In this document: one piece after another, positions 31,111 to 37,646 of the stretch
Layout: each line of letters starts with the position of its first letter
How positions within the stretch are numbered: the first letter of the stretch is position 1
IMG/VR virus record: IMGVR_UViG_3300025645_000186
Span: 1-37,646 of that record
DNA: 37,646 nucleotides
DNA from: a virus
Reading direction: 5' to 3' (one strand)
Notes under the pieces: generated by a model
The model's input: the letters and a program-made list of their open reading frames with translations, nothing else
Databases searched by the model: none
What the model was told of the DNA's origin: nothing
Program-made: the position numbers and the translations under genes

Positions 31111-31815
31111 ATGGCTTTACCCAAGATTAACGTACCTATGTATGACGTGTATTTACCGTCAACAGGTGCAAAACTAAATATGAGACCTTACTTAGTAAAA
31201 GAAGAAAAGGTCCTAATGATAGCATTAGAATCCAGTGACCCTGGACAAATTGCACAATCAGTACGGAATGTTATTAGTTCGTGTTATTCAATTGAAAACA
31301 TTGATGATCTAACAACATTTGATATAGAATATTTGTTCTTACAACTAAGAGGTAAATCAGTTGGTGAGGATATGGAATTACAGCTTAAGTGCGATAAGTG
31401 CGATACGTTAAATCCACTTGTTGTTAATGTTAATAATGTTAAGATGACAAATATTAGTGATAAAACTAATGTTGTAATGATAAATGATGAAGTAGGTCTT
31501 AAAATGAAGTGGCCTTCAGTTAAGACATTTGGTAGCATTGATGCAACAAAGTTAAACTCAGTTGAAGGTTTAATGGATCTAATAATGGAATGCATTGAAA
31601 GTATATTTGATGCAGATGCAGTATACAATAGAGATGAAATGGGTAAAGATGAATTAGTTAATTTTATTGACAACTTAAATTCAGCACAGTTTAAAAAGGT
31701 GCAAGAATTCTTTCAAGACATTCCAGCTGTAGAGTATAAGACTAAGTTGATATGTCACCAATGCAAAGAAGAGAATGAGATTGAGTTAAAGGGTCTGCAA
31801 AGTTTTTTTTCATAG
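31111..31815 (+). CDS. 26: Baseplate hub assembly protein gp26-like, zero-frame product
   Basis: The 234-aa product has the T4 gp26 pattern (T4_baseplate family): PMYDVYLPSTGAKLNMRPYL, VKEEKVLMIALESSD, VRNVISSCYSIENIDDLTTF, DIEYLFLQLRGKSVGE. Two CxxC pairs, Cys94/Cys97 and Cys215/Cys218, suggest a zinc ribbon that brings the middle and the end together. In T4 gp26 is needed for hub assembly. A good AGGAG Shine-Dalgarno precedes the ATG. The last codons AGT TTT TTT TCA TAG include a slippery U UUU UUU heptamer, so a second, longer product is likely. The family resembles tail assembly chaperones of other phages in place and size. Confidence 0.82.
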   Translation: MALPKINVPMYDVYLPSTGAKLNMRPYLVKEEKVLMIALESSDPGQIAQSVRNVISSCYSIENIDDLTTFDIEYLFLQLRGKSVGEDMELQLKCDKCDTLNPLVVNVNNVKMTNISDKTNVVMINDEVGLKMKWPSVKTFGSIDATKLNSVEGLMDLIMECIESIFDADAVYNRDEMGKDELVNFIDNLNSAQFKKVQEFFQDIPAVEYKTKLICHQCKEENEIELKGLQSFFS

Positions 31816-32323: not shown

Positions 32324-34222
32324 ATGGCAGATGATAACACAGGGCAATTTCAAGAACTAATCGATTTAATGGCGGCTAATAATAAGTCAACCATTGAGAT
32401 TGAACGTGATGGTAGAAATACACGACGTCATTTATTGGAAATGAAGAAACTGCAAACATCTGCTCTTGAGACCAATAAGAGTATATCAACAGTATTTGAA
32501 AACTTCTTTGAGGCTATGGACGCTAATAGGCTTTCTGATGCAGAAGGAGAGATGGAAAGATTATCTTTATTCGAAGATATTAGAGCGTCGTTAGATGGTG
32601 GTATAGTAGTTAACGATAACGGTAAGTCGGATAGTAAATCTGGTCCTGGTATGATGGGCAAGCTCGGTGGTATGATGGGCGGAGCTGCTATGGCCGCTGG
32701 CGCATTACTTGCAGGTGTAGGTATAGGTGCAGCTGGTCTTACATATGCTATGGGCAAGATGGAAGAGTTAGACACTAAAAAGATTAAAGAAAACGTTGAT
32801 GATCTATTGTCAATGGCTGAATCTGATAGAATGACTGTAGGTAATGTTGCAGCAGTTTCTGCTACAATGCTGGCTTTAGGCGTTGGCTTAGCTGCATTTA
32901 CTATAGGCGAAGGCGCATCAAAAGCTGTTGCTAAGTTCTCTGAAGGTAACGACTGGCCACAAGATATTAAAGATAACGTAGAAACATTATTATCTATTGG
33001 TGATATACCAGGCATGGGTGGAAATGCTGCTGCTGTAAGCTTAACATTAACTGGTCTAGGAATTGGACTGGCTGCATTTGGTATAGGTAAAGCTGCAGAC
33101 GGTGTTGGTACTGCAATATCATCATTTAGTGAAGGCAACTTCGCTGATAACATTAAGAAAGAAGTAGAGACTCTATTATCAATAGATACTGCATCAGCTA
33201 AAGATACAGCCGGTTTAGTTGCTACATTAACAGGCCTAGGAATAGGCTTATCAGCGTTTGCTATAGGTAAAGCTGGATCTGGTGTTGGTGACGCAATAAC
33301 AACATTTCAGGGCGATAACTTTGCTGCTGATATTAAGAAAGAAGTAGAAACATTACTATCAATTGATACGGGTGCTAAAGGCGATGTTAGTGGATTTGTA
33401 GGAACTATGACAGCTCTATCAGCCGGTTTAGTTGCATTTGCTATAGGTAAAGGCAGCGCTGGAGCTGCAGATGCTCTTACTAAATTTACAGCTGGTGATA
33501 ATTTTGCTGAAGATATTAAACGCGAAGTCGATACACTATTAACTATTGGCGATAGCGCTGATATAGAAAGAACACTAGCGGCTACTGGATCTCTTGCTGC
33601 CCTAGGTGCTGGTCTAACTGCATTTGGTGCAGGTAAAGGTGTCAATGCTCTTGCTGACCTAGGGTCTTCTATTGTTGGATTCTTTACTGGATCTAAGAGT
33701 CCTGTAGAACAAGCTATAGAAGTAGGCGAAAAGGCAGATACTATTACTGCTGGTGCAAATGCATTTAGTGCGTTTGCTGATGTATTTGAAAGAATGAGTA
33801 CGATGGGTGATATATCAATTGATATGGATGATGCAATTGAAGAAATGGTAGAATATACCAAGCTCTTAGAAACTGTATTACAGGGTGGTAAATTGACCAA
33901 AGGTACAAACTTTGAAACTGATGGTCTTGCTAATCTTACAGGTGATGTTGATAAAGCTGTTAGTAATATTAATAGAGTACGTGATGTATTACAATTACAA
34001 TCTGGTTCAGGTTCTCAAATGCAAGCTGAAGAGTCTCAATCTGGTAATAAGATCATCACTATATCAGCTGAAAATATAGAATTAAGAATGCCACAAGCAG
34101 CGGCTCAAGGTAGTACAGTAGCTGTGGCCGATAATAGTAAGAAGTCTAATGTTACCACAACTATAATCAATAGTCAACCTAAAAATAGAATTAACGATAC
34201 TCTTCAAAATGCTTATGGATAG
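32324..34222 (+). CDS. 29: Tape measure / baseplate hub protein gp29-like
   Basis: The 632-aa protein has the place and size of T4 gp29 (590 aa). Residues 1-100 are helical and charged. Residues about 107-145 are Gly/Ala/Met-rich and hydrophobic (GGAAMAAGALLAGVGIGAAG). Residues about 170-455 repeat a roughly 60-residue unit with the core LTGLGIGLAAFGIGKAADGV and DNIKKEVETLLSI. A Ser/Gln-rich stretch and a basic end (QPKNRINDTLQNAYG) follow. gp29 spans the tube interior and sets tail length. At about 1.5 Angstrom per residue the tail would be about 95 nm. AAGG precedes the ATG. Confidence 0.85.
   Translation: MADDNTGQFQELIDLMAANNKSTIEIERDGRNTRRHLLEMKKLQTSALETNKSISTVFENFFEAMDANRLSDAEGEMERLSLFEDIRASLDGGIVVNDNGKSDSKSGPGMMGKLGGMMGGAAMAAGALLAGVGIGAAGLTYAMGKMEELDTKKIKENVDDLLSMAESDRMTVGNVAAVSATMLALGVGLAAFTIGEGASKAVAKFSEGNDWPQDIKDNVETLLSIGDIPGMGGNAAAVSLTLTGLGIGLAAFGIGKAADGVGTAISSFSEGNFADNIKKEVETLLSIDTASAKDTAGLVATLTGLGIGLSAFAIGKAGSGVGDAITTFQGDNFAADIKKEVETLLSIDTGAKGDVSGFVGTMTALSAGLVAFAIGKGSAGAADALTKFTAGDNFAEDIKREVDTLLTIGDSADIERTLAATGSLAALGAGLTAFGAGKGVNALADLGSSIVGFFTGSKSPVEQAIEVGEKADTITAGANAFSAFADVFERMSTMGDISIDMDDAIEEMVEYTKLLETVLQGGKLTKGTNFETDGLANLTGDVDKAVSNINRVRDVLQLQSGSGSQMQAEESQSGNKIITISAENIELRMPQAAAQGSTVAVADNSKKSNVTTTIINSQPKNRINDTLQNAYG
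32841..33690 (+). repeat. Tandem about 180-nt coding repeats in gene 29
   Basis: Five diverged copies, with the best three near 33022, 33202 and 33382 spaced exactly about 180 nt apart, encode the alternating hydrophobic glycine-rich helix and the IKKEVETLL amphipathic helix. Confidence 0.75.
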
Positions 34223-34498: not shown

Positions 34499-35404
34499 TT
34501 AGCCCTGTTGAGCTAGCTTGTCAAAGTAGGACAAAGTATCCTCTTCAGCTTCATCACTAGAACTCATAGATACAGATTCAGTCGCTGCCATTGTTGGTTG
34601 TTCAACAACTGGAGCTGATTGCATCATGGAATTATTATCCATAGAGATGTGACCAGCATCAACGCCTAGTACCTTATTCATCTTAGCTTTAAGTTCATCA
34701 TATGACTTATAGTTCTTAGGGTCAATGAAGTCATTTAAAGAGTGTAGTTTATTATATACACCTTCAAGTTGTTCTTCATCACCACCCATAAGAGGAGCAG
34801 CCTGTGCAAACTCTGACTTATCATAGTTTACCCAACCTTCGACTTTACGAATTTTAATCTTAAAGTCAGCACCTTCCCAGAAGTCGTATGGATTTACTGG
34901 TTGTTCATCTGCAAATTGTGGTTGCATTACATCCATGATTTTATCAAAGATCTTTTTACCAAACTTGTATACAAATACCTTACCTTCATTTTGAGGATTA
35001 GATGGATCAGATACGACTAGCACATTACTTACATAATGTAACCTACGCTTACGATCACGGGCTAATGCTTTATCCTCATCACGACCAGAGTTCCATAGTA
35101 AACCATTTGATTCACTAACAGGATCATCTTGTCCAATTGAAGTTCGGCTATTTTCGATGTACCAAAGACCGCTAGGACCTTTAAATCCGTGATCCCAATA
35201 ACGAACCCAGGGAAGATCTTCGCCTTCTTTAGCAGGTAAGAATCGTACCACTGCATAACCATTACCAGCTTTATCGCGGGATGGTTTCCAGAAACGATCA
35301 TCGTCATAGTTCTTTGATTCAGTTTTAGAGTTAACAGATTCTGCTGCTTGTACGAGTTTGTCGATTGACGAGCCTCGCGAGCTCTTTAGGTTTGCAAATG
35401 ACAT
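34499..35404 (-). CDS. 32: Single-stranded DNA-binding protein gp32
   Basis: At 301 aa it equals T4 gp32 in length and matches it throughout: AGNGYAVVRFLPAKEGEDLP, DHGFKGPSGLWYIENSRT, VSNVLVVSDPSNPQNEGKVF, VYKFGKKIFDKIMDVMQPQF, WEGADFKIKIRKVEGWVNYD. The N-terminus carries the basic cooperative-binding part; the C-terminal tail is moderately acidic (SSSDEAEEDTLSYFDKLAQQ). Of the T4 zinc ligands only the His (His72) is kept: the Cys77 position is Ser86, and SCPVC reads DDPVS. The protein has no cysteine at all. It coats single-stranded DNA in replication, recombination and repair. GGAG precedes the ATG. Confidence 0.95.
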   Translation of the reverse strand: MSFANLKSSRGSSIDKLVQAAESVNSKTESKNYDDDRFWKPSRDKAGNGYAVVRFLPAKEGEDLPWVRYWDHGFKGPSGLWYIENSRTSIGQDDPVSESNGLLWNSGRDEDKALARDRKRRLHYVSNVLVVSDPSNPQNEGKVFVYKFGKKIFDKIMDVMQPQFADEQPVNPYDFWEGADFKIKIRKVEGWVNYDKSEFAQAAPLMGGDEEQLEGVYNKLHSLNDFIDPKNYKSYDELKAKMNKVLGVDAGHISMDNNSMMQSAPVVEQPTMAATESVSMSSSDEAEEDTLSYFDKLAQQG

Positions 35405-35482: not shown

Positions 35483-35511
35483 ATTATAACACATTTTCAT
35501 GCGTTTGTAAA
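35483..35511 (-). promoter_or_regulatory. Sigma70-type promoter for gene 32
   Basis: TTTACA (35511-35506), a 17-nt spacer and TATAAT (35488-35483) read on the minus strand, at the end of gene 59. The -10 box is a perfect consensus and -35 differs by one base from TTGACA. It would give an early leader of about 70 nt. Confidence 0.75.
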
Positions 35512-36084
35512 CGTTTTTTGTAATAAACTTATACATTTATTACGACTAAAGTTTACGAATGGACTATACTTTTCGATCTTCCGCTTGGTATCAGGCCACA
35601 TAATAGTGTCTGTTATCGTTGCAGATTCTCTAGGTATGAATCCAAAGATGGCATTAAGAATAACAACAGTCTCTAGACTAATCTCTTCTTGCAGCCATAG
35701 TTTAACAAGAGGGGGTAGTTGTCCATCAACAGATTGAAACAATCGATCAAAGGGTATATCCGCTTCTTGTAATCTATTTATATCGATAGAAAACACCCTA
35801 TGAATACTTTCACGTATTCGCTTAAACTCTCTGTAATTGCGTTCTCCATCTTCATCCATCATATCTCCAATGTAACTAAGACCCATTTTAAAGTTAGAGA
35901 CATAGTAATCCTTTAGATCACCTTCATGTTTCTTTGCTAGTTTGGCAAAGAAATACTTATCTCGTCGTTTAAAAAAACTCTTTTGAGTTACATTGGATTT
36001 AAAGTTATATTTAACAGCGTCATATCCAGACTCAAAGTGTAGCTTTAACGCGTTATATAACTTATATGATTCAAATGGATCCAT
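35497..36084 (-). CDS. 59: Helicase loader gp59
   Basis: The start is set at ATG 36084 (MDPFESYKLYNALKLHFESG) because CAGGAG lies 10 nt before it and the first residues match T4 gp59 (SVYKLYLMIKQHMNGKYDVI). A reading from 36147 would add 21 residues overlapping the 37-aa gene. The protein of 195 aa (T4 217) contains YDAVKYNFKSNV, FFKRRDKYFFAKLAKKH, then SNFKMGLSYIGDM, the gp59 two-domain helical pattern. gp59 loads the gp41 helicase onto gp32-coated DNA, consistent with its place just before gene 32. The end contains the gene 32 promoter. Confidence 0.92.
   Translation of the reverse strand: MDPFESYKLYNALKLHFESGYDAVKYNFKSNVTQKSFFKRRDKYFFAKLAKKHEGDLKDYYVSNFKMGLSYIGDMMDEDGERNYREFKRIRESIHRVFSIDINRLQEADIPFDRLFQSVDGQLPPLVKLWLQEEISLETVVILNAIFGFIPRESATITDTIMWPDTKRKIEKYSPFVNFSRNKCISLLQKTFTNA
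35775..35782 (-). promoter_or_regulatory. Possible late promoter octamer inside gene 59
   Basis: An exact TATAAATA on the minus strand lies in gene 59, about 370 nt before gene 32. T4 gene 32 also has a late promoter within gene 59, but a chance match is possible. Confidence 0.4.
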
Positions 36085-36197
36085 TATTGTATAGCTCCTG
36101 ATTCTGACAAGTAGATTGTTAAAATAACCGCGCCAATTAAAGACCAAATTGTTAGTTTAACAATCCCATTAACTATTGCGGTTAAAAAATCAAACAT
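36084..36197 (-). CDS. Small single-TM peptide, 37 aa
   Basis: Between dsbA and gene 59 an ATG at 36197 opens 37 codons: MFDFLTAIVNGIVKLTIWSL, then IGAVILTIYLSESGAIQ. Residues about 8-31 form one hydrophobic helix. It starts 2 nt after the dsbA stop and its TAA overlaps the gp59 ATG (TAATG), so all three are probably translated in a chain. The gp59 Shine-Dalgarno lies in its last codons. No family is recognised; a membrane anchor or small regulator is possible. It is too short to be certain, but the tight fit on both sides supports it. Confidence 0.6.
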   Translation of the reverse strand: MFDFLTAIVNGIVKLTIWSLIGAVILTIYLSESGAIQ

Positions 36198-36469: not shown

Positions 36470-36712
36470 CTAAATGGGTAATTGATTACCCTTTTTGCCT
36501 CTAATTAAATTAAGTCTTATTGCTTCAACTTCCATCTTATCTTTGAGTGAGTCTGTCAATAGTTTACGTAGATTACTATAGTCCATACCCCTCTCTTCAA
36601 TAATATAAGTAGCTGCATCTATATAAGACATATTACCTTTCACAACTAGTTGTTCTACGGTAGTTGAGAACCGCTTCTTTGTCATTATCTTTTGTTCTAA
36701 ATCTATATTCAT
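36470..36712 (-). CDS. 33: Late transcription co-activator gp33
   Basis: At 80 aa it is shorter than T4 gp33 (112 aa). FSTTVEQLVVKGNMSYIDAA with TYIIEERGMDYSNLRKLLTD aligns with T4 FIIEKMVEEFGMSYLEATTA and FLEENSIPETQFAKFI, and VEAIRLNLIRG with SEAIDENLLRP. gp33 binds the beta flap of host RNA polymerase and, with gp55 and the gp45 clamp, activates late promoters. The T4 C-terminal clamp-binding end (LDFLL) is missing; this protein ends GKKGNQLPI. The ATG overlaps the upstream stop (ATGA). Confidence 0.85.
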   Translation of the reverse strand: MNIDLEQKIMTKKRFSTTVEQLVVKGNMSYIDAATYIIEERGMDYSNLRKLLTDSLKDKMEVEAIRLNLIRGKKGNQLPI

Positions 36713-37646
36713 AGTACCCTAAGTAGTATGCAATCGTCATTTATTCTACCATTGGGTATACTGATCTTAGTAGTAATAGATTCCCAAACTAGCTTGTCGA
36801 TTTGCTTGATTGATTTCTTTAAAATAAGCGGTAGTATTTCATCTGGCTTTCTTAAGGTAGTAACCCTAGACTCTTTATCGCAGATGTTTTTAATAGTGGT
36901 ACCGCTTACTTCAAACCCTTTTGTTGAATTTGCAATCAACTGAATCAATTTCCTCGACTTAGTATTGTATATGAACAATACGTCTTTGCCTGGTATCATT
37001 ATAGGATTAATTGAACTTACTTTAAATTCAATGCTATCTGTTAGATATTTGAGACCTTTGATTTGAACATCAGACGCCTTAGGCTTTTTAGCCTTTGGCA
37101 CTTTAGCAGCTTTATTAGCTGTTTTTAACTGCTCTAAATCACTGAAGATACCTTCCATTAACTTAAGCATTTTGTTCTGCTTACGTCTAGTGATATGACC
37201 ATAAGCTTCAACAGCTTGCTCACACGCATTTTCATAAGCATCTTTAAGTGGGCGATACTCAATTTGTACCATATCATTAAACATATTGATACATGAACCT
37301 TTAAGATCATATTGCTTAAACAATTTAAACACATCGATCTCTTGATTATAAGTACCACCAACCCATCCTTCAACAATATCGTCCCAATCGCTGCCTATGG
37401 TATCATTAACTTTAATACGCTGTCTATCTTGAACTGATATCTTAGGTGCCGTAACTACAGCTGCAGTTTCAACATCAGCGATCTTATCAGCTTGTTCGGA
37501 CATCCTTTTAAATTCTAAACCAAAGCGTTTGATTTCTGGCTTGGTATATTCATAGCCACGTTGCCATAGCTTTGCTACATTACCTAGTGTAAGAGTAAGC
37601 TCCCAGTCCTTAAGCTTCTTAAGAGCTTTGATTTGAGTTTTGTCAT
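36709..37646 (-). CDS. Unknown conserved-type protein, 5' end outside window
   Basis: The frame is open to the right edge, so the ATG at 37503 is internal; 311 residues are visible. Upstream of it the frame reads LKKLKDWELTLTLGNVAKLW, then QRGYEYTKPEIKRFG. After that come a charged region (IKVNDTIGSDWDDIVEGWVG), a long helical part with a Lys/Ala-rich basic stretch (KTANKAAKVPKAKKPKASDV) and a beta-rich end with VLFIYNTKSRKLIQLIA. I associate the YTKPEIKRFG motif with a large gene of unknown function in marine T4-like phages. Coupled to gp33, it may share timing with the replication/transcription cluster. T4 has rnh in this area; no RNase H motif is seen. Confidence 0.75.
   Translation of the reverse strand, partial: DKTQIKALKKLKDWELTLTLGNVAKLWQRGYEYTKPEIKRFGLEFKRMSEQADKIADVETAAVVTAPKISVQDRQRIKVNDTIGSDWDDIVEGWVGGTYNQEIDVFKLFKQYDLKGSCINMFNDMVQIEYRPLKDAYENACEQAVEAYGHITRRKQNKMLKLMEGIFSDLEQLKTANKAAKVPKAKKPKASDVQIKGLKYLTDSIEFKVSSINPIMIPGKDVLFIYNTKSRKLIQLIANSTKGFEVSGTTIKNICDKESRVTTLRKPDEILPLILKKSIKQIDKLVWESITTKISIPNGRINDDCILLRVL

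Follow-up and report, generated by a model that had tools for sequence, protein, structure and literature searches.

A cysteine-free His-Ser-Asp state of the gp32 zinc site in a marine T4-like phage and its relatives

Introduction

The gp32 single-stranded DNA (ssDNA)-binding protein of phage T4 is a textbook zinc metalloprotein, and its zinc is described as holding the DNA-binding conformation. A viral contig 37,646 bases long, analyzed here in full and referred to as the window, carries a gene 32 (positions 34499 to 35404, minus strand) whose product of 301 amino acids contains no cysteine. This raises the questions of what occupies the positions that bind zinc in T4, whether the change is peculiar to this protein, and what might do the work of the metal in its place.

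Results and Discussion

Identity of the gene

The open reading frame (ORF) is identified as gene 32 by Pfam, PHROG, and PDB matches. The match to PF08804 has an E value of 1.1e-41 and scores 143.6 bits against a curated cutoff of 26.8, covering profile positions 1 to 207 of 208; PHROG 224 is matched at 4.9e-112, and the PDB entries 2a1k and 1gpc (T4/RB69 gp32 chains) are matched at about 1e-40. Upstream lie genes for a gp59-like DNA helicase loader (35497 to 36147, minus strand; PHROG 269, E of 5.6e-54) and a gp33-like late promoter transcription regulator (36470 to 36712, minus strand; PHROG 254, E of 5e-21), and the same kinds of genes occur near gp32 in phage Melnitz. At the contig edge, a 264-amino-acid ORF (36709 to 37503, minus strand) matches PHROG 11903, which is of unknown function (E of 4.8e-52). 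A nucleotide search with bases 14000 to 37646 returned, among named phages, just a small match to Pelagibacter phage HTVC008M, and the nearest named gp32 by protein is that of Phage C48C1, at 54%. An Rfam search for the gene 32 leader pseudoknot gave no match in the window, and two T4-type control loci were equally without a match, which leaves the search uninformative. The window protein appears to be an ordinary marine T4-like gp32, and its ssDNA binding is presumed to be normal.

The zinc ligand columns

T4 gp32 holds zinc through His64, Cys77, Cys87, and Cys90, according to the available portions of two reports (PMC3012046, PMC10862658). The initial annotation stated that the histidine is retained here, that the cysteines correspond to Ser86, Asp94, and Ser97, and that the protein has no cysteine, and both the swap and the absence were confirmed. 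Read by alignment to the T4-type gp32 L095, the four columns hold His72 (codon at 35189 to 35191), Ser86 (AGC, 35147 to 35149), Asp94 (GAT, 35123 to 35125), and Ser97 (AGT, 35114 to 35116), all on the minus strand. The whole ORF has zero cysteines, with histidines at 72, 123, 221, and 252 only, so the protein lacks a zinc-type site of one histidine and three cysteines (HCCC, in column order). The alignment register can be trusted, since in aquatic relatives whose loop is equally long the cysteines fall exactly at 86, 94, and 97, as in L216 (ENCPTTLGQKCPVCEAN versus ENSRTSIGQDDPVSESN).

The lack of cysteine is weak evidence in itself, because 11 of the 25 ORFs in the window have none; at the frequency found in those ORFs (40 cysteines per 12,016 residues), the probability of a 301-residue protein without cysteine is 0.37. 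Although the absence alone is unremarkable, the site itself does carry a genuine substitution. Relatives exist at 96, 95, and 92% identity, L001 and L003 among them sharing the site, and these together with the large class described below rule out sequencing error as its source.

Elsewhere in the window, a gp26-like baseplate hub protein (PHROG 150; 31111 to 31815, plus strand) has two CxxC pairs and 6 cysteines in 234 amino acids. It is a candidate zinc ribbon, and since it keeps these pairs, the phage does not appear to avoid such sites altogether. Near it, an ORF of 632 amino acids (32324 to 34222, plus strand) had no PHROG match at an E value of 0.001 and shows by eye about five internal repeats of the type VETLLSIDT...GLGIGLAAFAIGKA.

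Two states among the relatives

Relatives were gathered as the 80 loci nearest each query, first 342 loci, then 409, and then five more named phages, for a total of 366 distinct gp32 sequences. The 409 loci yielded 361 distinct ORFs, that of the window among them, with identical ORFs merged and L081, which is the window itself, omitted; some contigs were taken twice with different ends and are possibly double-counted in this set. Within the 366 sequences gathered, whose tallies are not prevalences, 302 carry His-Ser-Asp followed by a varying residue (HSD; 237 HSDS, 54 HSDG, 9 HSDA, 1 HSDR, and 1 HSDT), 55 are HCCC, and 9 are mixed. The cysteine-free site is the commoner state in this set. The substitution first noticed in one protein is not a single-protein oddity but belongs to a large class.

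Both states occur inside one family. HSD was found in the Kyanoviridae C48C1, HTVC008M, Melnitz, S-MbCM100, P-SSM4, AG-345-F15, S-H9-1, ACG-2014f, S-B05, and S-SCSM1, and HCCC was found in S-PM2 and DSL-LC03, which were chosen for their high rank with an HCCC-type query and are no gauge of how frequent HCCC is. The five sequences nearest to S-PM2 with the site columns masked (0.73 to 0.79) are all HSD. The named Straboviridae sampled (S13, FriedrichMiescher, 44RR2.8t.2, Lazarus, BL02, and TG1) are all HCCC, a state also found in many other contigs that share the loop length of the window protein; the gp32 of contig L109 is HCCC as well. Mixed states were seen in Acidovorax phage ACP17 (YCDN), Campylobacter phage F370 (YSCQ), and the Ackermannviridae BX-1 and Kuja (HSCR). 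The gp32 of Sinorhizobium phage phiM12 (L413, 509 to 1447) reads HCDS, having cysteines at 86 and at 96 rather than 97 and keeping Asp94. One gp32 match in a viral contig (L148, 1501 to 2385) contains an in-frame stop codon.

Conservation was counted in the 308 non-HCCC rows of the 361 set, with no selection on the counted residues beyond omission of the HCCC rows. Histidine is found at column 72 in 306 rows, serine at 86 in 304, aspartate at 94 in 303, and proline at 95 in all 308, whereas column 97 is variable (S in 237, G in 53, A in 9, and others in 9). The median conservation per column is 0.78, and by this measure Ser86 ranks first of the 13 core columns with a serine majority and Asp94 ranks third of the 21 columns with an aspartate majority. 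A ranking inside the HSD rows only was discarded, because for columns 72, 86, and 94 it is circular. Judged from these alignments, chance does not account for the pattern seen at the ligand columns, and because His72, Ser86, and Asp94 are near-invariant in the non-HCCC class, the site seems to have been replaced and not simply lost.

Repeated switching of the whole site

Trees were built from core residues 31 to 250 after removal of columns 72, 86, 94, and 97, using 81 of the 361 sequences for a careful tree and 129 for a quick one. The careful tree requires 8 state changes, or 6 when branches below an ultrafast bootstrap (UFBoot) support of 70 or 80 are collapsed and 5 when those below 90 or 95 are. 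The quick tree requires 14, which drops to 10 with a support cutoff of 70 or 80 and to 5 with one of 90 or 95. The HCCC sequences, a grouping based on the very trait under study, were also forced into a single clade with the trait columns masked; this costs 209.5 log units and is rejected (AU test, P of 1.03e-9). Five independent cross-state contrasts fall on starred branches. The whole site has thus switched between states at least five times on well-supported branches, and gain cannot be told from loss because the root of the tree was not inferred. Shuffled labels on the full quick tree give about 22 changes against the 14 observed, so the state is also inherited and not only switched.

Some switches separate close relatives. 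The entire site differs between L366 (HCCC) and L382 (HSDS), at a core identity of 0.851, and between L364 and L221, at 0.850. Recombination of the site segment is not supported by the comparisons made: in six close cross-state pairs, DNA identity over residues 66 to 106 was not consistently out of line with the flanks, and HCCC site segments are mutually only slightly nearer (0.78 versus 0.73, against 0.67 versus 0.64 for the rest of the core).

It could be argued that zinc is simply dispensable, that its ligands drifted, and that serine and aspartate are common leftovers. The presence of the zinc site in the sampled Straboviridae and its absence from most other sampled sequences would fit such a neutral loss, as would the sharing of states by related rows, with fewer changes than under shuffled labels. 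However, drift does not lead one to expect near-invariant Ser86 and Asp94 or repeated switching between the same residues. A change from Asp94 to cysteine requires two base changes (GAT or GAC to TGT or TGC), yet partial states make up just 9 of 366 sequences. We consider neutral loss improbable.

Predicted structure and a possible second shell

An AlphaFold2 model of the window gp32 (45 aligned sequences) has a mean pLDDT of 79 overall and of 89 to 92 over residues 71 to 100. It aligns to 2a1k with a Z score of 23.9 (root mean square deviation [RMSD] of 2.0 over 211 residues) and to 1gpc with a Z score of 23.0 (RMSD of 1.8 over 208 residues), and the top Foldseek entries are the same. For the zinc-type L216 (35 sequences, mean pLDDT of 87.8), the corresponding values are 25.9 (2.0, 211) and 25.2 (1.8, 209). 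The T4/RB69 core fold is therefore predicted to be kept in the window protein. This prediction is weak evidence regarding zinc because metals are not represented in AlphaFold2, which would likely predict the same fold with or without one. The initial annotation had held that the core fold must be stable without zinc; the T4 ligands are indeed absent and the model retains the fold, and a fold that stands without zinc is the likely reading.

In the model, Ser86 directly precedes helix 87-90 and Asp94 directly precedes helix 95-104. The L216 model has its helices placed alike, helix 83-86 following C82 and helix 91-100 following C90, so serine and aspartate would occupy the two cysteine positions just ahead of helices. 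Serine and aspartate are favored helix N-cap residues.

Two nearby columns may form part of a second shell. At column 82, 287 of 300 HSD rows have Tyr, but 35 of 39 non-Straboviridae HCCC rows have Phe, Leu, or Met there; at column 84, all 300 HSD rows have Glu, and 23 of the 39 have Asp. The T4-type HCCC rows, 14 Straboviridae-type sequences set apart by our own assignment, some of them from contigs, keep both Tyr82 (13 of 14) and Glu84 (14 of 14). On independent pairs, the association was consistent in direction and not significant (median P of 0.25), and we regard the link to Tyr82 and Glu84 as a lead rather than a result.

The conserved polar residues bear on whether the site holds a different metal. 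The initial annotation had named an alternative set of ligands conserved in relatives as the observation that would count against it, and His72, Ser86, and Asp94 partly answer to this description, although their conservation does not imply that they bind metal. It is conceivable that His72 and Asp94, together with other conserved polar residues (Glu84, Glu98, and Ser86), bind a harder ion, for example Mn, Mg, or Ca, or Zn by way of His, Asp, and water. The near-invariance of the three ligand-column residues and of Glu84 is what such a center would produce, and conserved His, Asp, and Glu are also compatible with a non-zinc metal. Serine, however, is a rare metal ligand, and the fourth ligand column varies (S, G, or A), which leaves this reading unlikely. 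Glu98 was rejected as a replacement ligand because it is also kept in non-Straboviridae HCCC rows. An extended version, in which HSD is a metal-swapped center with a different ion held by His72, Asp94, and conserved acids close by, and in which T4-like phages toggled between zinc and that ion several times, possibly tracking metal supply, strikes us as a shade less likely again.

The conserved serine and aspartate could alternatively serve the binding of ssDNA, RNA, or a partner protein. In the accessible part of one study, the zinc domain lies near DNA-binding residues, T4 residues beside it are described as DNA contacting, and the domain is tied to translational repression (PMC535899). Against this, the T4 zinc finger is described as buried in the available text of a 2026 paper (PMC12893549), and the swap coincides exactly with the ligand columns. 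A binding role is accordingly doubtful, to about the same degree as a different metal.

A proposed metal-free replacement of the zinc knuckle

We propose that, of the two states of the site, the window gp32 represents the zinc-free one, with a metal-free network of helix caps and hydrogen bonds in place of the zinc knuckle; we give this reading a probability of roughly two in three. In the zinc state, found in T4 and, by sequence, in S-PM2, a His and three Cys coordinate Zn(II), which fastens two short helices to the OB-fold core. The zinc-free state retains the His and has Ser86 and Asp94 in place of the first two cysteines, whereas the position of the last cysteine is free to vary. Because Ser86 and Asp94 directly precede the two helices in the window model, they may act as their N-caps. 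His72, and perhaps Tyr82 and Glu84, would join them in a metal-free network of hydrogen bonds or salt bridges that takes over the structural role of zinc, and we infer that no metal is held at the HSD site. The histidine contact would not be universal, as ACP17 and F370 lack both the three cysteines and the histidine. The gp32 family has toggled this site in its entirety no fewer than five times.

The finding is larger than first stated, in that a core replication protein shows a conserved replacement of its structural zinc knuckle that has recurred. If many aquatic relatives lack the zinc site and lineages toggle it, they offer several natural replicates of zinc-knuckle replacement. Close pairs at 85% core identity and cultured phages of both states, such as S-PM2 and S-SCSM1, would allow a direct test of the benefit of structural zinc and of its substitutes. 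The titles and abstracts searched held no description of a zinc-less gp32 or a two-state site; most subscription journals lay outside that search, and such a description may be in print.

Comparison with known systems

The gp32 core of T4 and RB69 (PDB 1GPC and 2A1K) resembles the window protein in its PF08804 domain, in the OB-fold core predicted here, in the gp59-like and gp33-like neighbors, and in the histidine of the zinc site. It differs in having three cysteines where the window protein, with none at all, has Ser, Asp, and Ser, and the loop before the second ligand is two residues shorter in the window protein. In the available portions of the T4 literature, complexes are more stable with zinc, and once it is removed DNA binding is weaker but persists (PMC10862658), and zinc was found in every gp32 of a crystal (PMC11551737). 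The gp32 proteins of the cultured Kyanoviridae P-SSM4, S-MbCM100, S-SCSM1, and HTVC008M and of Phage C48C1 have the same His-Ser-Asp-(Ser/Gly) site; those of C48C1, HTVC008M, and S-MbCM100 are about 53 to 54% identical to the window protein overall, and the site does not differ.

Among bacterial ribosomal proteins (L31, L36, S14, and others), zinc-binding cysteine versions and cysteine-free versions likewise alternate within one family, and the window gp32 resembles the zinc-free versions in that its Cys ligands are replaced and its fold is kept, the latter by prediction. As described in the accessible text of three reports, the ribosomal versions are alternative copies in one genome, used under zinc limitation (PMC9825181, PMC13343924, PMC5912738). 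In contrast, a search for a second, zinc-bearing copy found a single gp32 match in the 37.6-kb contig, which is probably a fragment, and for gp32 it is between lineages that the state differs.
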